Below are positions 1 through 8,091 of a stretch of DNA of 35,102 nucleotides, one piece after another. The notes below the pieces were generated by a model. It searched no databases and was not told the DNA's origin. It saw only the letters and a program-made list of their open reading frames with translations. Source of the stretch: a virus. The translations under genes and the position numbers were made by a program. The stretch's first letter is position 1. Every line of letters begins with the position of its first letter. The stretch spans positions 1 through 35,102 of the IMG/VR virus record IMGVR_UViG_3300042484_002649; one strand, 5' to 3'.

Positions 1-579
1 CCTTTCTATTCCAGAATTCACATCGTATCCTATGGTTGATAGCAGCAGTCCTAGCATCACCATTGAAAAAGATTTCAAAAAAGAATCTCCACCCAACACT
101 ATTACGGATAACAATCCCAACCCCATTAAGGATGCATATTCTACAGGACCAAAATAGAATGCCAGCTGAGATGCAGGCACGGCAAACAATGCTATAGCTA
201 TGGTAGAGAAAGTTCCTGCCACAAATGAGCCAATGGCTGAGATAGAAAGTGCTGTGCCTGATTTACCCATTTGTGACAATGCATACCCGTCATTTACTAT
301 TACAACAGATGATGCTTCTCCTGGCAGTTTCAATAAAATTGCCGTGATAGAACCACCGTATTGAGTTCCATAATATATTCCTGCTAAAAAAATTATCGCT
401 GTTACCGGATTTGGTATCATTAAAACACCTGGCAACAGGATACTCATTGATGTGGCTGGGCCTAGTCCCGGCAACACTCCTACCAATGTGCCTAAGAAAA
501 CACCAGCAAAGCAATACAACAAATTCTGTAAAGAAAATGCTTCACTGCCATACATGAGGGCCTGCTGTATTATTTCCAT
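1..579 (-). CDS. tctA: TctA, large membrane subunit of a tripartite tricarboxylate transporter (partial, runs off left edge)
   Basis: The open frame begins with ATG at 579-577 and stays open to base 1, giving the first 193 residues of a family whose members are about 500 residues long. It starts MEIIQQALMYGSEAF and carries the TctA glycine/proline signature GVLPGLGPATS near residues 39-49, then a stretch matching YYGTQYGGSITAILLKLPGE. Several hydrophobic membrane spans are visible. TctA is the inner-membrane translocation subunit of TTT transporters, which take up tri- and dicarboxylates with TctB and a periplasmic binding protein, TctC. The start overlaps the end of the tctB-like gene by 10 nt, so the two are translationally coupled. 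No tctC lies on the upstream side, where the queC-like gene diverges instead. The family call is very secure; the substrate cannot be read from the sequence. Finding this gene beside phage genes is unusual. Confidence 0.93.
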   Translation of the reverse strand, partial: MEIIQQALMYGSEAFSLQNLLYCFAGVFLGTLVGVLPGLGPATSMSILLPGVLMIPNPVTAIIFLAGIYYGTQYGGSITAILLKLPGEASSVVIVNDGYALSQMGKSGTALSISAIGSFVAGTFSTIAIALFAVPASQLAFYFGPVEYASLMGLGLLSVIVLGGDSFLKSFSMVMLGLLLSTIGYDVNSGIER

Positions 580-770
580 TTTACAGATGAAAAAATTAAA
601 ATCAAACCGTTAACTGCCAGGATAGCGGAGAGACCCGAAGGAAAGAATCCAGGAGGGATCTGCGAAAAATCTTGCAGAGAAGACATGTAAAATAACGATT
701 CGTAGAAAAATAACAGGCCTATAGAAATAAAAAGGATACCCAAAATAAAATTTTTTTTGTCAACAATCAT
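570..770 (-). CDS. tctB: Short TctB-like small membrane subunit
   Basis: This 66-residue hydrophobic protein has two predicted membrane helices, at about residues 8-26 and 45-62, separated by a loop reading QIPPGFFPSGLSAILA. That loop resembles the GPGYFP segment of TctB. TctB proteins are usually 140-170 residues with four helices, so this is roughly half a TctB: either a minimal version or a truncated gene that keeps its frame. It sits directly upstream of tctA with a 10-nt overlap, the usual tctB-tctA order. The helices and motif are visible. The TctB name rests on that motif plus position, and function as a half-length protein is uncertain. Confidence 0.72.
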   Translation of the reverse strand: MIVDKKNFILGILFISIGLLFFYESLFYMSSLQDFSQIPPGFFPSGLSAILAVNGLILIFSSVKWK

Positions 771-785
771 CTAGTTAAATATAGA
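757..785 (+). promoter_or_regulatory. Probable sigma70 promoter of the queC-like gene
   Basis: TTGTCA at 757-762 and TATAGA at 780-785 are separated by 17 nt. The predicted start near 792 leaves a leader of about 14 nt before the ATG at 806. The promoter overlaps the start of the divergent tctB-like gene, so expression of the two may interfere. Confidence 0.5.
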
Positions 786-805
786 ATAAACATGCAGTAT
801 ATTTA

Positions 806-1384
806 ATGAAACTATCATTCGACCAAAAATATTATTATGGAATTTTGCTGTCAGGCGGACTTGATAGTGCTATTCTTTTGTATCTGTTGGTCAAACACAA
901 TAAAGGAATTAAAATACAACCATTCACTATTCCAAAGAAAGATGGCGCATACCTGTATGCTGATCCCATAATTGATTTTTTTAACCGTAAGTTTAATTTT
1001 AACATACCAGGTACTGTTAAGGCAGGTAGTCCAGATGTTCATCATAGCCAACAAAATGCATCTGCTGTGAAAGAAGTATTTCAAAAACATCAAATAGATA
1101 AAATTTTTATAGCTTTAAACCCTGTACCAGATGCTTTAAAAAACTATCCCGGTGTCCCCAACAGAGCCAAAGAAAGTATTGATCCTAGAATAATTTTTCC
1201 TTTCGTGGATTTTACCAAAGAAAAAATTTTATCTATGTTGTTTGATAATAGCTTAGAAGAACTGATTTCATTAACTCATTCTTGTACCGAACAACAAGTA
1301 GGAAGATGCGGAACCTGTTGGCAATGCCAAGAAAGAGCATGGGCATTTCAAGAATTAAAAAAACAAGACTGCGGAATAAATTAA
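806..1384 (+). CDS. queC: QueC-like PP-loop ATPase (7-cyano-7-deazaguanine synthase family)
   Basis: This 192-residue protein has the N-type ATP pyrophosphatase loop SGGLDS at residues 16-21 and a C-terminal zinc site of four cysteines (C160, C168, C171, C174; C-x7-C-x2-C-x2-C), as in QueC. QueC converts 7-carboxy-7-deazaguanine to preQ0 with ATP and ammonia. Preq0 feeds queuosine in tRNA and, in some phages, 7-deazaguanine bases in DNA. The protein is a little shorter than typical QueC (about 220-230 residues), and the middle is divergent, so another PP-loop amidation or thiolation reaction is possible. A QueD homologue is encoded at 15870-16421; QueE and FolE are not in this window. The next gene starts one base after the stop. 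Confidence 0.75.
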   Translation: MKLSFDQKYYYGILLSGGLDSAILLYLLVKHNKGIKIQPFTIPKKDGAYLYADPIIDFFNRKFNFNIPGTVKAGSPDVHHSQQNASAVKEVFQKHQIDKIFIALNPVPDALKNYPGVPNRAKESIDPRIIFPFVDFTKEKILSMLFDNSLEELISLTHSCTEQQVGRCGTCWQCQERAWAFQELKKQDCGIN

Positions 1385-1385
1385 C

Positions 1386-2090
1386 ATGTCTAATATCATA
1401 GTTCCACCCGGTGTTAGCGGAAGATCTCAGAATTATTCTCCCGATAATGTTTCTGCAGAAGACATTAAAAACGAACTCACATTATCAAATCTAGGAAGTT
1501 TTGAACCTTTAAAATTTAAAATTGATTGTCGATCTTTTATGGAAGAAATAAAACACTTTGAAAATGATTGGCAAGATTATCTACCTAGAACCGACAGGCC
1601 TAATAATAGACAGTCTTTGACATTAACTAATCTTCCAGGGTCGGATCATAAAACAAATCCTAGTTTGGCTCAAGCAAGCTACGCTGCCGGAAGAAGACTA
1701 AGCGAATTAGAATTTAATCAACCTACAGCAGTTTATAATGCCTGTCATAGTTTACACGGATTCTTAAATTTATGGAGTCCTCTTGGGAGAACTTTTCTTG
1801 TAAAAAGCAATATAGGTGGACATTTTGTGCCGCATAGAGATCATCCCAGTATGCCTCGTGATGTTTTTAGATTAATAGTATTTTTAAACAATTGTGGCCC
1901 CTATGACTATGATTGGTTAATGGATGATCGAAAGTTGAACATTGAACACGGCAGGGCGTATTATGTTAATACCAGACATACTCACAGAACTATTTCTTGG
2001 GTGAATGACAGCATACATTTAATTCTCAATATTCCCATGACTGCGGAAAATGTAGATAAAATTATCGCTAATTTACAGCACACTCACTGA
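1386..2090 (+). CDS. Aspartyl/asparaginyl beta-hydroxylase-like Fe(II)/2-oxoglutarate oxygenase
   Basis: This 234-residue protein has a C-terminal cupin-type half resembling the Asp/Asn beta-hydroxylase family. The HxD iron-binding pair is H150 and D152 in GGHFVPHRDHP. The distal histidine is H198 or H200 in NTRHTHRTISW, with R201 nearby as a possible 2-oxoglutarate ligand, followed by the strand SIHLILNIPM. Such enzymes hydroxylate protein side chains or small molecules using oxygen and 2-oxoglutarate. The N-terminal 100 residues are not recognised. It follows the queC-like gene by one base, so the two probably share a transcript. Its 3' end overlaps the convergent minus-strand gene by 18 bp. 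The substrate is unknown. Confidence 0.75.
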   Translation: MSNIIVPPGVSGRSQNYSPDNVSAEDIKNELTLSNLGSFEPLKFKIDCRSFMEEIKHFENDWQDYLPRTDRPNNRQSLTLTNLPGSDHKTNPSLAQASYAAGRRLSELEFNQPTAVYNACHSLHGFLNLWSPLGRTFLVKSNIGGHFVPHRDHPSMPRDVFRLIVFLNNCGPYDYDWLMDDRKLNIEHGRAYYVNTRHTHRTISWVNDSIHLILNIPMTAENVDKIIANLQHTH

Positions 2091-2618
2091 TTGTAATTTT
2101 TCCTCTATAGCGTACCAGTCTTCGATAAAAAAACTTCTTAAACTTACAACTGCCATCCATTTTTCTGGATCAGGATTATACCCAGTGTGCCAGTTTGTTC
2201 CGGGGGTAAATTTAACAGCACCTTTAGTAAATGACCATGAATCTATTAATTCGGCATTTTCTGGTTTAATGATAGGTATTCCGTAGGAATTGTTTGGGGG
2301 AGCAACTAAATTTCCGGTTGGCCTGTTTAACTTATCTAAATTTTTGTATATCTCAAGTTCTGCATGTTTGAATTCATCTGTGGTAAAATCTAATGCCCAT
2401 GGAGTAGGTCCATGATCTCCCATGTCTACATGTATAGGCATTCTGTGTCTGGGCTTAATCCAGCCAACAACACAGCGTATGTCTCTACCTCTACACACAT
2501 CTTGTAAGTTAAATTCTTCTATCCACGGACTTGCTGAATGAATGGCCGCGATATAATATGTGGTCGCGGTGTTATCGGGAACGAATTTAGTATAAGGTAG
2601 TTGTATAGAAGTAAACAT
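2073..2618 (-). CDS. HxD...H cupin-type oxygenase-like protein (array member 1, distal end)
   Basis: This 181-residue protein has a likely 2-His-1-carboxylate site, H63 and D65 in MPIHVDMG and H144 in GTNWHTGYNP. R161 is a candidate 2-oxoglutarate contact. It is the most divergent of the five short tandem oxygenase-like genes and carries an extra segment between the two motifs. It is last in the minus-strand operon: its ATG overlaps the stop of the upstream paralogue by 1 nt (TAATG). The fold assignment is inferred from residue spacing and from its neighbours. A role as a non-catalytic paralogue cannot be ruled out. Confidence 0.6.
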   Translation of the reverse strand: MFTSIQLPYTKFVPDNTATTYYIAAIHSASPWIEEFNLQDVCRGRDIRCVVGWIKPRHRMPIHVDMGDHGPTPWALDFTTDEFKHAELEIYKNLDKLNRPTGNLVAPPNNSYGIPIIKPENAELIDSWSFTKGAVKFTPGTNWHTGYNPDPEKWMAVVSLRSFFIEDWYAIEEKLQSVSVL

Positions 2619-3175
2619 TATTTTATATATTTAGATAGCTTTTCACCTAGAGATTCAAAAGTTTCGTCAAACCTCAGAGTACAGGCCACTCGTCTTTGGA
2701 TGTGAGGAAAACTTTTTACTCTATGGATAATTTGAGGATTAAAAATCACCGGTCCGGGAGTGTCCCATTTATCAATGACTGTTCTTGCGTCTGGCCAAAC
2801 TGTGGCATCATCGATTCTTCCCTTAGGATCAAATTTCGGTGTGGCATTTTCTTCGCTGTAAAATTCCACCCAGGTTCCGGGAGTAAAATTCCAATTAATT
2901 CCACATTGTCTTTTTGCGACAACGCCATCGTCAGAAAACCAATTTCCGTCTGTGTGTGGAGGCCTAGGTCTTAATGTCCACCAATTGATCATTAAAAATG
3001 TATTTCTTAATTTCACATTGTTTTCTTGGAAACACTCAATTAATTCTGGATTAAGATACTCAGTAGAATGCAATTTGTCCATGCGATTTTCTGGCCAATC
3101 GTTGTTTAATAGATAATCCACTGGATGACTGAAAGGAAATATATCTAATGCTAACTTGATGTAACAGGTATTCAT
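2618..3175 (-). CDS. HxD...H cupin-type 2-oxoglutarate oxygenase-like protein (array member 2)
   Basis: This 185-residue protein begins MNTCYIKL, almost identical to the start of the gene upstream (MNTCYVEL). The iron-binding pattern is H74 and D76 in RPPHTDGN, H151 in PQIIHRVK, and R161/R162 following. The core strand INWNFTPGTWVEFY is shared with the next paralogue (LNWNFTPGSWVEFY), so the two are recent tandem duplicates. Relative to it, this copy has an insertion around residues 104-125. Its start overlaps the upstream stop as ATGA. Proteins with this layout are common in T4-like marine phages and are usually annotated as 2OG-Fe(II) oxygenases of unknown substrate. Confidence 0.68.
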   Translation of the reverse strand: MNTCYIKLALDIFPFSHPVDYLLNNDWPENRMDKLHSTEYLNPELIECFQENNVKLRNTFLMINWWTLRPRPPHTDGNWFSDDGVVAKRQCGINWNFTPGTWVEFYSEENATPKFDPKGRIDDATVWPDARTVIDKWDTPGPVIFNPQIIHRVKSFPHIQRRVACTLRFDETFESLGEKLSKYIK

Positions 3176-3696
3176 TTTTTTAAATAGTCTTTTAGTTTTT
3201 CTTTAACAGAAAAATAAGGTTCATCAAATCCAATACTGTATGTTAGTCTACGCACAGTTTGATTTATGTTTTTGACTGTATGAGGAATCTGTGTATTGAT
3301 TAGTGCTGGACCGAGAGAATCCCATATTGCTATAGGTTCTGACGAAGTTTTCCAAAATATATTTGTAGTATCCTGTGATCTTATATAATCATTTCCTGGA
3401 ATTTTTTCATAGAACTCGACCCAAGATCCCGGAGTAAAATTCCAGTTTAATGCAGTATTTCTAAAGCCGTCGGTATGAGGAAATGTTACTTTATCACCAA
3501 ACCAATAAATTAATAACCACTTTGGCCTTATTGAAATTTTACAACTGTGTAAAAAATCTACTAGTTCATTATTCAGTTCAGAAATATCCCTAACTTGGGT
3601 CATTTGATTTTCTAAAAATGTATCTAAGTTAACCGAATTAATAGATTCTTTGAGTGGATGGATTTTAATATCTAATTCAACGTAACAGGTATTCAT
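3172..3696 (-). CDS. HxD...H cupin-type 2-oxoglutarate oxygenase-like protein (array member 3)
   Basis: This 174-residue protein is a tandem duplicate of the gene downstream. The predicted iron ligands are H74 and D76 (FPHTDGF) and H139 (TQIPHTVK), with R149/R150 as a possible co-substrate contact. Residues 82-96 match the LNWNFTPGSWVEFY core shared with its neighbour. It has 4-nt ATGA overlaps at both ends, which implies translation from one polycistronic message. The oxygenase call follows from the motif order and spacing. No substrate can be inferred. Confidence 0.68.
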   Translation of the reverse strand: MNTCYVELDIKIHPLKESINSVNLDTFLENQMTQVRDISELNNELVDFLHSCKISIRPKWLLIYWFGDKVTFPHTDGFRNTALNWNFTPGSWVEFYEKIPGNDYIRSQDTTNIFWKTSSEPIAIWDSLGPALINTQIPHTVKNINQTVRRLTYSIGFDEPYFSVKEKLKDYLKK

Positions 3697-4223
3697 TCTA
3701 TATTTAATCTAGATTTTACCTCGTTATAGTTTAATCTGTCTTTGGTAATTTTATCTCCGACAACAATACTAATACACCATCGATCATTTTTACCATTTAC
3801 TACTGTATGAAAATCACCGACATTTACAAGATTTAGATTAATCAGAGTCGCTTGACAAATTTCTTCAGCATTGGTTTTTTCTAATTTGAGATATCTAGTA
3901 TTAGATTTGCTGTAGGCGTATATTATTTTATTATGGTCTGCGGCTTTATACCAATGCATTACGCTGTCATTGCCATTGATAATGTAATTTAATTTGCATT
4001 TATTATCAATTTCGTGTCCGTCGCAGTGTATATCATACGATCGATTTGGTGGTAGATAAAATATCTCTGTCCATAATACCACGGCATCAAGCGTATTTTC
4101 TAGCCATTGGTGCACTTTTTCGGGCAACAAATTGATATTACATTTGGTCTGTTGATCGACAAACTCCGTAAGATCGAGATCGATAGAAAAAGGCAATTCA
4201 ACCGGATGATAAAAATTATTCAT
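3693..4223 (-). CDS. HxD...H cupin-type oxygenase-like protein (array member 4)
   Basis: This 176-residue protein carries H66 and D68 (YDIHCDGH), a core strand KLNYIINGNDSVMHWY at the position of the LNW...EFY strand of its neighbours, and a distal H139 (GDFHTVVNG) with R148 after it. Sequence identity to the flanking paralogues is low outside these anchors, so this is an older duplicate or an independent acquisition of the same fold. It overlaps both neighbours by 4 nt. It could be a catalytic oxygenase or a binding-only relative. Confidence 0.62.
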   Translation of the reverse strand: MNNFYHPVELPFSIDLDLTEFVDQQTKCNINLLPEKVHQWLENTLDAVVLWTEIFYLPPNRSYDIHCDGHEIDNKCKLNYIINGNDSVMHWYKAADHNKIIYAYSKSNTRYLKLEKTNAEEICQATLINLNLVNVGDFHTVVNGKNDRWCISIVVGDKITKDRLNYNEVKSRLNIE

Positions 4224-4747
4224 TGAAATTTATCTCGGACATCTTCAAATTTAAATTCTTTATTGACACTCCAACTAAGAATTATTCTTGGTTTTGAACT
4301 ATTGTTAATAACCATGTGGGGAATTGAATTATTGATCAACGTAGGTTCTAGCAAAGTAAATCTAAAAAGTTCCGTTACTTCCGACTTGATTAAATTATAA
4401 ACGTTTTTAGAATCATATTCTAAAATTGGATCTTTAACATGCTCATAGAAAATTGTTACGCTGTCTTCGGTGTTCTCAATAGGTATATTCAACGCCGCTG
4501 ATCGTTGAGCATCAACGTGCAAAGGAATTTTACGATTTCCTGGTAGAGTATATATATTATAAATGCTGCTTAAAAACGGATACTTAGATTGTATTTTTTG
4601 TAGATAAGGATGATCTGACACTGATCTATGATGGGAAGCATTCAGATTTTTATCGGATGAAAACTGATTTAGAAAAACTATTTCTTTGATTTCTTCTAGA
4701 TTTAAATCTAATTTAGGTTGGTAAATTAGATTTGTTTTTTTGTTCAT
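4220..4747 (-). CDS. HxD...H cupin-type 2-oxoglutarate oxygenase-like protein (array member 5)
   Basis: This 175-residue protein shows the clearest family pattern: GNRKIPLHVDAQRSAALNIPI with H77 and D79, then TIFYEHV, LLEPTLINNSIPHMV with distal H144, and KPRIILSW with R154. This layout (HxD, ALNIPI, xFY, PxLIN, PHxV, R) is typical of small oxygenase-like proteins in T4-like phages. It is the first of the five overlapping short genes. A gap of 70 nt separates it from the oxygenase gene upstream and holds a late-type promoter motif, so these five genes may form a sub-operon. Confidence 0.7.
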   Translation of the reverse strand: MNKKTNLIYQPKLDLNLEEIKEIVFLNQFSSDKNLNASHHRSVSDHPYLQKIQSKYPFLSSIYNIYTLPGNRKIPLHVDAQRSAALNIPIENTEDSVTIFYEHVKDPILEYDSKNVYNLIKSEVTELFRFTLLEPTLINNSIPHMVINNSSKPRIILSWSVNKEFKFEDVRDKFQ

Positions 4748-4786
4748 GGTTTCTATTAGTTTTAAAATTATGTTACAGCTGACGAT

Positions 4787-4794
4787 TATTTATT
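4787..4794 (-). promoter_or_regulatory. Late-type promoter motif AATAAATA upstream of the oxygenase sub-operon
   Basis: AATAAATA on the minus strand matches the T4/cyanophage late -10 motif (NATAAATA). It lies 40 nt upstream of the ATG at 4747, in the only intergenic gap of this block larger than a few bases. There is no visible terminator here, so read-through from the porin is also possible. Confidence 0.45.
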
Positions 4795-4817
4795 GAAACA
4801 ATTTTAAATAGAAACAG

Positions 4818-5537
4818 TTAAGTTTTTTTGGTAAAAATACTTATTCCTAATTTTGAATGCACCCCTACCCTACGAAAGTCACTGGCACAATGCAGTCGAA
4901 TGCTGTCAAATATTATGGCATTTCTAGGAATCCAAGGAATCATACATTTTATGCTCATCCCATCCAACCAATGTTTCTTTAGATGGGTGAAATATGTTTC
5001 ATATAGTTTTTGATCAAACTCAGCTGCTGCAAGATTTTCTATTCTTGAATAATCATATATCTGTTCATTGTAGTAGGTCGGTATATCGTTTTCGTTTTTA
5101 AAAAACTTTGCTGGACCGTGAAAATATAGTTGATCAAAAAAGCATAGATGAGGAAATTCTTTTACATTTTCGCCGTACAATTTCAATGGTAGTGTTATAC
5201 CTTTGTATACGTCATTCGGTAACTCGAATGTATCGTCATTGTGAATAACATGCGGGTACTCTGTTTTATAAAAAAAAGCTGCGGTGATTACATAATTTCC
5301 TATTATTGATTTTAACCTATCAATAATATTAGTCACTACTTGATCTTGATTAAAATTATTAAGATTTAAAGTTACAGGACCTGTATTTTTTTTAATTATT
5401 GAAGAACAATTATTGTCTTGAGATTGTTCAAAAATTTTTATTAGATATGATACTTCGTCTTCAAGAAGAAAATTCGGAACGAAGAAGGGATCAGTTATAT
5501 TAGACCTAATAACAGATATTTCTTCTTCGTTCCTCAT
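4818..5537 (-). CDS. Putative 2OG-Fe(II) oxygenase (prolyl-hydroxylase-like size)
   Basis: This 239-residue protein is larger than, and not obviously paralogous to, the five short genes downstream. A candidate iron site is H99 and D101 (HVIHNDDTF) with distal H216 in SIRLHCASDFRR, followed by the strand KLGISIFT. The opening DPFFVPNFLLEDEVSYLIKIF resembles the N-terminal helix entry of prolyl-4-hydroxylase-type oxygenases. The text INHNDD-x-TLPLKLYG order fits a double-stranded beta-helix. It starts 3 nt after the porin stop, so it is probably co-transcribed with the porin. The substrate is unknown. The call is from motif pattern and context. Confidence 0.62.
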   Translation of the reverse strand: MRNEEEISVIRSNITDPFFVPNFLLEDEVSYLIKIFEQSQDNNCSSIIKKNTGPVTLNLNNFNQDQVVTNIIDRLKSIIGNYVITAAFFYKTEYPHVIHNDDTFELPNDVYKGITLPLKLYGENVKEFPHLCFFDQLYFHGPAKFFKNENDIPTYYNEQIYDYSRIENLAAAEFDQKLYETYFTHLKKHWLDGMSIKCMIPWIPRNAIIFDSIRLHCASDFRRVGVHSKLGISIFTKKT

Positions 5538-5540
5538 TTT

Positions 5541-6560
5541 TTAAAAACGATGGCTGATTCCTAGTCCTAATGAACTGGTATCTAAACCGGCTGTTGCCGG
5601 AGCACTTGTTGCATTGAACATGGTCATAGACGAGTTAGATTGATTATAGACTTTGCTATATGCTCCATAAAGTGTGGTGCGTTTACTTAGGTCTTTGGTA
5701 ACCGCTAATGTAACACCGTTGCCTTTGTTGTTAGTAGTGCTGGAACCATTTGAGCTGTGCGCATATACGACATGAGCAGCATACTGTTGCTGCAACGGTA
5801 CCCTTACTGAGGTTACCCATGTCGAACTAGTCACATCAGCGGTAGTTGAATTATCACCTCTTGCATAGGCAGTACCAACTGATAACACAGAAAAATCATA
5901 GGCCAACCCTGCAGTCGTGGTCTCACGTGCTGCCACACCCACACCTTGATTTTTCTGATAGCCTATTCCTGCCTTTACTTTGCCTGCTTCGTATCTTAGA
6001 GCCACTCCATTTTGATCTGCATTGGCATCTGTGGTTGCTCCTACGTTGTTGGTAGCATGACCCACTATGAGTTGAAATCCTCCATAAACTGGACTGTCAT
6101 ATCTGACCACGTTTTTTTGATCAGTACCCAATTCAACACTGGTACCGTTAGTTGGATGCATACCAAAGTTTCCAGATTGTGATACAAATATATCCATCTC
6201 TCCTACTAGAGCCACATCAGTTCGTCCCATTCTAATTGATCCCAACGAAGACTTGATACCAATATGCGCATCTCTATTGAAAATTTCATTAGCAGCTACA
6301 GTGGTAGACCCCATTGATCCTGTGGAGGGATTCAACGTTCCTTCTATTTGAAAAAAGGTACTTAGCCCTCCTCCGAGGTCTTCTGTGCCTCTAAACCCTA
6401 AACGACTCGTGCTATATTGACTATCAGCCGCTCTAGTAAAACTAGAGGTTCCGTTGTTGTAGGACTGTATGCTTGTGTCAATTACACCGTATACCGTAAC
6501 CTGTGCGTAGGCGGCAGAAACTCCAAAAAGACACAGAAATGGCAAAAATTTTAATTTCAT
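5541..6560 (-). CDS. Gram-negative outer-membrane porin (Burkholderiales type)
   Basis: This 339-residue protein has a signal peptide, MKLKFLPFLCLFGVSAAYA, with cleavage expected before QVTVYGVID. The mature start (VTVYGVIDTSIQSYNNG), the motif SRLGFRGTEDLGGGLSTFFQIE and the C-terminal HRF with final phenylalanine are typical of trimeric general porins of Betaproteobacteria. Length is normal for the family and the frame is intact. It would form a diffusion pore for small solutes in the host outer membrane. It heads a minus-strand block with the oxygenase genes. Porins are very rare in phage genomes, so this is either a true auxiliary gene or a sign of a chimeric assembly. Roles could include nutrient entry or altering the receptor to exclude other phages. 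Confidence 0.92.
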   Translation of the reverse strand: MKLKFLPFLCLFGVSAAYAQVTVYGVIDTSIQSYNNGTSSFTRAADSQYSTSRLGFRGTEDLGGGLSTFFQIEGTLNPSTGSMGSTTVAANEIFNRDAHIGIKSSLGSIRMGRTDVALVGEMDIFVSQSGNFGMHPTNGTSVELGTDQKNVVRYDSPVYGGFQLIVGHATNNVGATTDANADQNGVALRYEAGKVKAGIGYQKNQGVGVAARETTTAGLAYDFSVLSVGTAYARGDNSTTADVTSSTWVTSVRVPLQQQYAAHVVYAHSSNGSSTTNNKGNGVTLAVTKDLSKRTTLYGAYSKVYNQSNSSMTMFNATSAPATAGLDTSSLGLGISHRF

Positions 6561-6592
6561 TTAATTCGATCTCCATAAATTTAAATCGCTAC

Positions 6593-6621
6593 ACTATATA
6601 TCCTTGAGTAATTTTCTTCAA
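6593..6621 (-). promoter_or_regulatory. Sigma70 promoter of the porin operon
   Basis: Read on the minus strand, TTGAAG (6621-6616) and TATAGT (6598-6593) are 17 nt apart. The predicted start near 6586 gives a leader of about 26 nt containing GGAG before the ATG at 6560. It is arranged back-to-back with the promoter of the tRNA-like RNA. Confidence 0.6.
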
Positions 6622-6638
6622 AATTTTCTATAAAAGTA

Positions 6639-6667
6639 TTGCAATAAGAATGATTTTGTTATATAAT
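6639..6667 (+). promoter_or_regulatory. Sigma70 promoter of the tRNA-like RNA and the histone-like gene
   Basis: TTGCAA at 6639-6644 and a perfect TATAAT at 6662-6667 are 17 nt apart. The predicted +1, seven bases after the -10 box, is G6674, which is exactly the first base of the tRNA-like acceptor stem. Confidence 0.7.
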
Positions 6668-6673
6668 AAAGCT

Positions 6674-6784
6674 GTGGTCGTGAGCAAATTGGCAAAGCTC
6701 CCGCTGGACCCATAGTCCAGAATGGGGACGGGGCGCTGACGTAGTTCGTAGCCTTTGTAGGTTCGAAACCTACCGACCACACCA
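6674..6784 (+). tRNA. tRNA-like RNA with CAU-like loop and oversized variable region
   Basis: The ends are those of a tRNA. A perfect 7-bp acceptor stem (GTGGTCG 6674-6680 with CGACCAC 6774-6780) is followed by discriminator A and an encoded CCA at 6782-6784. The T arm is perfect (GTAGG / TTCGAAA / CCTAC, 6757-6773), and the D arm is GAGC / GCTC with GG in the loop (6682-6700). A 5-bp arm CTGGA/TCCAG (6704-6720) presents the loop CCCATAG, whose central CAT would be a methionine-type anticodon, but position 33 is C instead of U. The segment from the D stem to the T stem is 56 nt, well beyond a normal long-variable-arm tRNA. It includes a further hairpin GCTGACG/CGTAGC (about 6735-6752). It is therefore a tRNA with an insertion, or a tRNA mimic. 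Total length 111 nt. Confidence 0.6.
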
Positions 6785-6786
6785 AT

Positions 6787-6803
6787 TACTACAATAAGTA
6801 GTA
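6787..6803 (+). other. Hairpin between the tRNA-like RNA and the histone-like gene
   Basis: TACTAC (6787-6792) and GTAGTA (6798-6803) form a perfect 6-bp stem with the loop AATAA, starting two bases after the CCA end. There is no T-run, so it looks like a processing or spacer element and not a terminator. Confidence 0.45.
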
Positions 6804-6826
6804 GAACATAACTTAAGGAAAACATT

Positions 6827-7021
6827 ATGTCAAACACAGTAGAACAACTCAAAGCAGCATTTGAAAACTTTTTAGCGGAAGATGCAAAATTTGCCGCTGG
6901 TAACAACGCAGCAGGTACTCGTGCTCGTAAAGCACTTCAAGAAGTAGGTAAAGCAGTTAAAGCTCGTCGTAACGAAATCACAGAAGAAAAGAACGCCCGT
7001 AAAGAAGCTAAAGGTGCATAA
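6827..7021 (+). CDS. Histone H1/Hc1-like small DNA-binding protein
   Basis: This 64-residue protein is rich in Ala, Lys, Arg and Glu, with the segment GNNAAGTRARKALQEVGKAVK followed by ARRNEITEEKNARKEAKG. It matches the pattern of the chlamydial Hc1 family (KGNKAAxxRxRKxxxxLxK), which compacts DNA. It would be a cytoplasmic nucleic-acid-binding protein. AAGGA precedes the ATG at a good distance. It appears to share a transcript with the tRNA-like RNA, and its stop overlaps the next start by 1 nt (TAATG). Small Hc1-like genes are known from several phage groups. DNA binding is inferred from the family. Confidence 0.75.
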   Translation: MSNTVEQLKAAFENFLAEDAKFAAGNNAAGTRARKALQEVGKAVKARRNEITEEKNARKEAKGA

Positions 7022-7587
7022 TGCATCTTGATCAAGATGCTTTTTCTAGCGGACAAGTATTGAGCAAATTATGGTTAGCTGAATCTTTAGAAAAAATCAT
7101 AGAACTTAACATGCCAGCACACCCTAGACAGATACTTTGTTTAGGTGGCTGGTATGGTCTAACAAATTTTATATTAAGGATCCGCAATCGTATTGAAATC
7201 AAAACTTTTCGCAGTTTAGATATTGATCCCGAAGTTGAAAAAATCGCAGATAAGATCAATAACTCTTGGGAGTGGCAAAATTGGCAATTTAAAAGTATAA
7301 CTGGCGATGCCAACGACTTTCAATATACCATCGATGATTTCGACACAGTGATAAACACCAGCGTAGAACATATTGAATCTCAAGAATGGTTTGACAACAT
7401 TCCTAAAGGAACATTAGTGGTGTTACAAAGCAACGACATGAAACATGAAGATCATTGTCATAATCATAATTCTCTAGAAAACTTTGTCAAAGATTTCAAG
7501 TTATCTGAGATTTATTTTACTGGTGAAAAACTATTTGAATATCCAGATTGGCAATTTCGAAGATTTATGATTATTGGGGTAAAATAA
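7021..7587 (+). CDS. SAM-dependent methyltransferase-like phage protein
   Basis: This 188-residue protein has a Rossmann-type start, ILCLGGWYGL near residues 38-47, in place of the usual glycine-rich SAM loop. An acidic strand end follows at RSLDIDPEVEKIA, then TGDANDFQY and DTVINTSVEHI, at positions expected for motifs II-IV of class I methyltransferases. The second half contains a histidine-rich stretch, HEDHCHNH. Related proteins occur in many T4-like marine phages. The target is unknown and catalytic activity is not certain. The gene begins inside the stop of the histone-like gene. Confidence 0.62.
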   Translation: MHLDQDAFSSGQVLSKLWLAESLEKIIELNMPAHPRQILCLGGWYGLTNFILRIRNRIEIKTFRSLDIDPEVEKIADKINNSWEWQNWQFKSITGDANDFQYTIDDFDTVINTSVEHIESQEWFDNIPKGTLVVLQSNDMKHEDHCHNHNSLENFVKDFKLSEIYFTGEKLFEYPDWQFRRFMIIGVK

Positions 7588-7590
7588 TAA

Positions 7591-8091
7591 ATGGCCAACA
7601 AAAAAAACATGAATAAAGATTACACCGTAACTGGTAGTCTAGATGGATATGGTGCTGGTGCTCTCGACTATAGTAATATCAGTTCTGGGTACGGTGCTGA
7701 TACTATCACCATTGACTTAGGTGGGGGAGCAGCACAGCCAATCTATACCATAGATACAATGAACGATATCACTCTGGATTCCAGCACGTTCACCTTCGGC
7801 AGCACCACAGTTCCTTATACCTACACAACAACCGGCACAACTGGTTATAACTTCAATACCACATCACCAAGTGTCAATATCACAAGTGGTGGTATCGACA
7901 TGGCTGCTGGCACTGATATCAAAGTAGATGGTAAAAGTCTCAAAGAGTTTATGAACAAGATGGAAGAACGTTTGGCCATACTTGTTCCTGATCCTAAGAA
8001 ACTAGAACAGTTTGCTGCACTGAAAAAAGCCTACGAACATTACAAGCTGATGGAGTCGCTCTGTCAGGAACAACCTAAAGAAGAAGCTTAA
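7591..8091 (+). CDS. Probable virion structural protein with conserved C-terminal KKAYEHY helix
   Basis: This 166-residue protein has two parts. Residues 1-110 are rich in Gly, Ser, Thr and Tyr with beta-repeat character (SLDGYGAGALDY, TTTGTTGYNFNT). Residues 115-160 are an alpha-helical tail containing LAILVPDPKKLEQFAALKK and AYEHYKLMESLC. The tail resembles a segment of small conserved proteins of T4-like cyanophages and pelagiphages. A similar ending (KKAYEQYSMMLYLAG) occurs in the gene at 8915. A structural role is inferred from composition. It follows the methyltransferase-like gene by 3 nt. Confidence 0.55.
   Translation: MANKKNMNKDYTVTGSLDGYGAGALDYSNISSGYGADTITIDLGGGAAQPIYTIDTMNDITLDSSTFTFGSTTVPYTYTTTGTTGYNFNTTSPSVNITSGGIDMAAGTDIKVDGKSLKEFMNKMEERLAILVPDPKKLEQFAALKKAYEHYKLMESLCQEQPKEEA

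Follow-up and report, generated by a model that had tools for sequence, protein, structure and literature searches.

Of the unexplained accessory genes that aquatic T4-like phages carry, those for oxygenases dependent on Fe(II) and 2-oxoglutarate (2OG) rank with the most frequent. In T4-like cyanophages they are carried by 14 of 16 genomes, with up to five per genome, including asparaginyl beta-hydroxylases and, in two genomes, TauD, and a role in 2OG/nitrogen signalling has been proposed for them (Sullivan et al., 2010; PMC3037559). Here we describe a 35,102-base stretch of virus DNA (IMG/VR record IMGVR_UViG_3300042484_002649; the window, by which we mean the whole stretch analysed), from a virus that infects freshwater bacteria. 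It carries seven candidate oxygenase genes, ox1 to ox7, in a single 4.2 kb block, whereas the cyanophage genes are counted per genome, and it further differs from the cyanophages in having an ox1-ox7 core, a QueC-like neighbour and a non-cyanophage context. The array enlarges on a cassette built around two enzymes, ox1 and ox7, which dozens of uncultured aquatic phages carry.

Among isolated phages only ox1-type genes were matched, in Pelagibacter phage Mosig EXVC030M (MT647606.1, 54.3–66.9 kb). This phage has an ox1 homologue (32.5% to an 'Asp_Arg_Hydrox' protein) and two more family members, and the neighbouring genes, all of putative function, encode a fatty acid desaturase, TauD, a nitroreductase and a radical SAM protein. 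However, ox7 was not detected in Mosig, and its oxygenases are interspersed rather than arrayed. At the protein level, most of the array resembles the Pfam family PF05118. Human AspH, from this family, has an HxG...H motif in which iron is bound by two histidines only (PMC10947486, PMC13168262), and its R735, ten residues after H725, holds 2OG (PMC10947486). An arginine is likewise found at +10 from the distal histidine in ox3, ox4 and ox6, but the array proteins keep an HxD...H motif with an aspartate ligand and are short single domains. The seven genes, with the predicted active-site residues of their products, are as follows.

ox1, 1386–2090, plus strand: 234 amino acids (aa), PF05118-like oxygenase, core member; H150, D152, H200.
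ox2, 2073–2618, minus strand: 181 aa, orphan HxD...H protein; H63, D65, H144.
ox3, 2618–3175, minus strand: 185 aa, PF05118-like on the basis of family alignment and tree; H74, D76, H151, Arg161 at +10.
ox4, 3172–3696, minus strand: 174 aa, PF05118-like; H74, D76, H139, Arg149 at +10; missing from a sister contig.
ox5, 3693–4223, minus strand: 176 aa, PF05118-like; H66, D68, H139, Arg148 at +9.
ox6, 4220–4747, minus strand: 175 aa, PF05118-like, the commonest accessory member; H77, D79, H144, Arg154 at +10.
ox7, 4818–5537, minus strand: 239 aa, predicted PhyH-like double-stranded beta-helix (DSBH) oxygenase, core member; H99, D101, H216, K229.

As a first-pass annotation of this DNA had described, seven open reading frames, one on the plus and six on the minus strand, occupy positions 1386–5537, and the HxD pairs and distal histidines (residues 200, 144, 151, 139, 139, 144 and 216 of ox1 to ox7, respectively) lie where it had placed them. 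Five of the genes, ox2 to ox6, are chained as it had noted, by overlaps of 1, 4, 4 and 4 nucleotides (nt); the tail-to-tail overlap of ox1 and ox2 is 18 nt, and ox7 is separated from the chain by 70 nt. The motif alone is weak evidence, as HxD...H with a spacing of 40–160 residues arises in 13–51% of shuffles of each array protein and is also found in four of 20 other window genes. In the array it is nevertheless more than chance, because the same residues are kept in distant homologues: an HxD/E...H triad is conserved in the family alignments of ox1 and ox3 to ox7, and in one distant homologue of ox2.

Searched directly, none of ox1 to ox7 scored above the cut-offs of Pfam or PHROG. When profiles were iterated across the loci retrieved, ox1, ox3, ox4, ox5 and ox6 merged into one superfamily, and in profile-profile comparison the ox6 family matched both ox1 (95%, E = 3e-8) and ox5 (73%, E = 3e-5). 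PF05118 was matched by 8 of 15 ox1-type and 6 of 17 ox6-type family members. Since these relatives pass the Pfam cut-off whereas no window protein reaches it (ox6 scores 12.3 bits where 22.6 are needed), we class ox1 and ox3 to ox6 as PF05118-like rather than as members of the family, and by homology to PF05118 a DSBH fold is predicted for all five. H150 and H200 are invariant across the 15 sequences of the ox1 family, with D152 conserved in at least 90%; in the 17 divergent sequences of the ox6/ox3/ox4 family, no substitution occurs at H77, H144 or R154, and at least 90% again have D79. The arginine that follows the distal histidine at +9 or +10 in ox3 to ox6, a candidate for holding the C5 carboxylate of 2OG, has no equivalent in ox1, and ox2 has only K153 at +9. 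Neither the ox6 nor the ox7 profile gave a significant PDB match by sequence. For ox2, a homologue with 39% identity (locus L041:3067–3609) occupies the same slot beside ox1 and retains H63, D65 and H144. Comparison of the resulting two-sequence profile with the ox6 family gave the right register and a weak match (hhalign 12%, E = 0.0024). Judging from these alignments, ox2 is probably the same kind of oxygenase as the rest of the array.

The first-pass annotation had proposed structure prediction for each product; this was carried out for ox7 only, and gave a DSBH. The AlphaFold2 model of ox7 has a pLDDT of 94.3 when built with 60 homologues, versus 52.9 with six, and a Foldseek search with it against the PDB gave 443 hits at E ≤ 0.001, headed by 2OG oxygenases. 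The best were SnoN, SnoK, ColD, FtmOx1 and AsqJ (8–13% identity, TM-scores of 0.44–0.53), of which the PhyH-type enzymes SnoN, SnoK, FtmOx1 and AsqJ act in natural-product pathways. The ox7 model shares with these PhyH-type oxygenases its fold and the order of its metal ligands, but identity is low, the TM-score is about 0.5, and Pfam PhyH was matched by none of the 60 ox7 family members. H99, D101, H216 and K229, the last at +13 from the distal histidine, are invariant in 60 of 60 members. From the model, ox7 is a predicted PhyH-like oxygenase, of a type separate from the PF05118-like members. Homology and conserved triads thus uphold the original view that the array proteins are of the Fe(II)/2OG oxygenase type and mostly related paralogues. 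As an array of a single kind, it holds together for ox1 and ox3 to ox6, which form one superfamily, but not for the PhyH-like ox7 or the orphan ox2.

The ox7 scan identified 85 relatives in IMG/VR, 80 of which were examined, yielding 79 loci with a callable ox7. It can be seen from these loci that ox1 is an almost constant companion (76 of 79), whereas accessory genes come and go: an ox6-type gene is present in 41, an ox5-type gene in 14, an ox3/4-type gene in seven and an ox2-type gene in two, with QueC-like and methyltransferase-like genes in 32 each. In a non-redundant set, from which near-copies were removed and to which the window and a few contigs found via ox1 were added, ox1 is present in 63 of 66 ox7-bearing contigs. 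The number of other detected oxygenases between ox1 and ox7 is mostly zero to five, and once seven, and L033, L037 and L056 repeat the gene order ox7-ox6-ox5-ox3/4. When TauD and more distantly placed types within the stretch examined are included, each relative carries between two and nine oxygenase candidates within at most ~17 kb; seven are found in ten contigs including the window, eight in two and nine in one. The seven oxygenases of the window are therefore near the top among relatives but not unique, and the density of the array, on which the first-pass annotation had remarked, is high even against these relatives. Its assumption that a T4-like phage normally has just one oxygenase is borne out neither by these counts nor by those for the cyanophages (PMC3037559), and the annotation missed the larger pattern of a conserved ox1-ox7 pair with variable accessory oxygenases. 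This cassette, with its fixed core and variable accessory slot, is the new part; no description of it was found in the limited set of literature that we searched.

A sister contig, L004 (IMGVR_UViG_3300013131_000052), is 97–98% identical to window positions 1–7849, with only ox4 missing. A direct repeat is present in the window in two copies.

Direct repeat copy 1, 3161–3176, minus strand: AATGAATACCTGTTAC, 16 nt, at the start of ox3.
Direct repeat copy 2, 3682–3697, minus strand: AATGAATACCTGTTAC, 16 nt, at the start of ox4.

The L004 junction falls in this repeat, joining across both copies, with exactly ox4 missing between them, which fits either loss of ox4 in L004 or its gain in the window via the repeat. 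The ratio of non-synonymous to synonymous polymorphism (pN/pS) between the window and L004 is 0.07–0.18 in each of the six oxygenases with an orthologue in L004, ox4 having none, and 0.118 overall. The shared oxygenases are under purifying selection, and on these values decayed copies were rejected. The first-pass annotation had also seen two clear recent duplicates among the seven, but ox3 and ox4 share only 37% identity, and in a tree that leaves the group poorly separated and places ox4 on a long branch, ox3 is nearer to the ox3-type genes of L033, L037 and L056 than to ox4; recent duplication of the two was rejected on these grounds. Past ~7849 (inside 7591–8091) identity to L004 drops to 73% or less, marking a mosaic border; we conclude that the oxygenase/porin block moved recently between phage backbones. 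The GC content of the block is 34–36%, versus ~43–45% elsewhere.

A scan of 84,980 prokaryote genomes, which depends on short conserved peptides so that distant relatives may escape, found one ox7 relative, on a 335-kb contig (L110, PBPT01000016.1) of a Neomarinimicrobiota metagenome-assembled genome. Because this contig carries a terminase gene together with the same cassette, it is probably phage DNA, most plausibly a misbinned jumbo phage. A bacterial origin of ox7 was accordingly rejected, the sole genome match being this probable phage contig. ox7 was found on no bacterial chromosome searched and in none of 50,697 cultured-phage records, and tblastn with ox2, ox4, ox6 and ox7 against the 50,697 isolated-phage records gave nothing meaningful. 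A two-gene core that is present in more than 60 non-redundant contigs and absent from the searched bacterial chromosomes turns a vague category into a defined system.

Our preferred reading, to which we give a probability of about 0.5, is that the seven genes encode Fe(II)/2OG oxygenases of an expanded phage cassette that performs the oxidative tailoring part of a phage biosynthetic pathway. The core of ox1 and ox7 would be constant, while PF05118-like accessories enter and leave the stretch that separates the two. In each enzyme the His-x-Asp...His triad would hold Fe(II) and a basic residue would hold 2OG, and decarboxylation of 2OG with O2 would be coupled to hydroxylation or other oxidation at a single position, on an intermediate that the enzymes share or pass on in succession. 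Partners in the pathway would be enzymes of the PP-loop/QueC-like or nitroreductase-like, radical SAM, desaturase, AMP-binding and methyltransferase types. That the enzymes are catalytic and work in one pathway, on a small molecule or lipid and in a given order, is conditional on this reading; the suggestion of the first-pass annotation that a target is modified in sequence or in diverse ways is compatible with the data. The whole cassette could be expressed together, and nature offers versions in which individual enzymes of the accessory slot are present or absent, among them the sister that differs by exactly one oxygenase.

Several points weigh against the tailoring reading. The activity of the cassette is a prediction from its genes, as are any substrate and product, and we know of no pathway with this gene set. 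ox2 has a single distant relative and a weak profile match, and ox7 is the sole structure model, with modest TM-scores to PDB entries. Moreover, the neighbouring genes vary widely, so that the product may differ from phage to phage, or the enzymes may share no pathway. A more specific proposal can be offered only tentatively, namely that this is a phage-restricted biosynthetic system in which an obligate ox1-ox7 pair, diversified by exchange of the accessory oxygenases and of a partner that is QueC-like or nitroreductase-like, would yield an oxidised metabolite, lipid or peptide in infected aquatic bacteria.

The array might instead hydroxylate host, virion (tail fibre) or phage-encoded proteins or peptides, with a separate residue or partner for each paralogue. 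AspH, which belongs to PF05118, hydroxylates proteins (PMC10947486), diversification of paralogues fits many targets, the combination of radical SAM-SPASM, PP-loop and oxygenase genes resembles peptide-tailoring clusters (cf. PMC13060819), and a tail-fibre gene is close to one ox1-family gene in Mosig. We nevertheless regard protein targets as rather unlikely: no precursor peptide was found, although none was sought, peptide-recognition and TPR domains are absent from proteins that are all single short domains, and small molecules or lipids would account at least equally well for the AMP-binding, desaturase and nitroreductase neighbours.

DNA hypermodification is known in phages, and with a QueC-like protein to supply a 7-deazapurine-type step the oxygenases could modify phage DNA or RNA bases against host nucleases. 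This is improbable, given that the fold matches are to PhyH-type rather than AlkB/TET enzymes, that a nitroreductase-like gene often replaces the QueC-like gene, and that the scanned part of the window proteins showed no further 7-deazapurine gene. Improbable too is a role mainly in consuming 2OG or supplying succinate, adjusting carbon/nitrogen status in infection as proposed for T4-like cyanophages (Sullivan et al., 2010; PMC3037559), for which one highly expressed enzyme would suffice, and diverged paralogues, a fixed ox1-ox7 pair and radical SAM/PP-loop partners would not be needed. Finally, the hypervariable, AT-rich character of the region, the presence or absence of ox4 at a short repeat and the mosaic border would all fit an array that is a by-product of recombination, with most copies inactive relics. 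The triad is, however, kept in all seven genes, none of which has a frameshift, and the pN/pS values of the six with an orthologue are low; the selection test largely refutes this explanation, which we consider very improbable indeed.

Two neighbours in the window belong to families that are frequent beside the cassette.

QueC-like PP-loop ATPase, 806–1384, plus strand: 192 aa with a C...CxxCxxC C-terminus, directly upstream of ox1; frequent cassette partner.
Putative methyltransferase, 7021–7587, plus strand: 188 aa, sub-threshold Methyltransf_25 match; in 32 of 79 relatives.

The former passes the Pfam QueC cut-off (4.3e-10, 39.9 bits versus 22). PADLOC matched none of the oxygenases and only this protein, to a QueC model, and identity of the array as a defence system was rejected. 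The commonest recurrent families near ox1-ox7 are a further PF05118-like gene and nitroreductase-like, fatty acid desaturase, radical SAM-SPASM, TauD, metallophosphatase, Asn-synthase-like PP-loop, AMP-binding and FMN reductase genes. The same-strand gene directly upstream of ox1 in 61 contigs is nitroreductase-like in 27, QueC-like in 19 and neither in 15, and the ox7 tree requires at least seven switches between the two types of neighbour. This alternation in one slot is strong as a count but suggestive only, because the tree offers too few independent pairs for significance (p = 0.125).

Judging by sub-threshold gp9/10-like and tail-fibre matches, the phage is probably T4-like. Chance alone would give 2.8 sites of the T4-type late promoter TATAAATA in the window; the only one present lies away from the array, and this candidate signal was rejected. 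A complete Gram-negative porin gene (5541–6560; Porin_4, 6.6e-41) adjoins the array; receptor substitution or uptake is a possible function for it, and it hints at a betaproteobacterial host. A TctA-like permease gene and a short TctB-like fragment, assigned by eye with no family search, are present at window positions 1–770 and at L004:11648–13144, the TctA-like gene being full length in L004 and truncated by the edge of the window. Just past the left edge of the window, L004:13671–14889 carries a fatty acid desaturase gene followed by a fatty acid hydroxylase gene.

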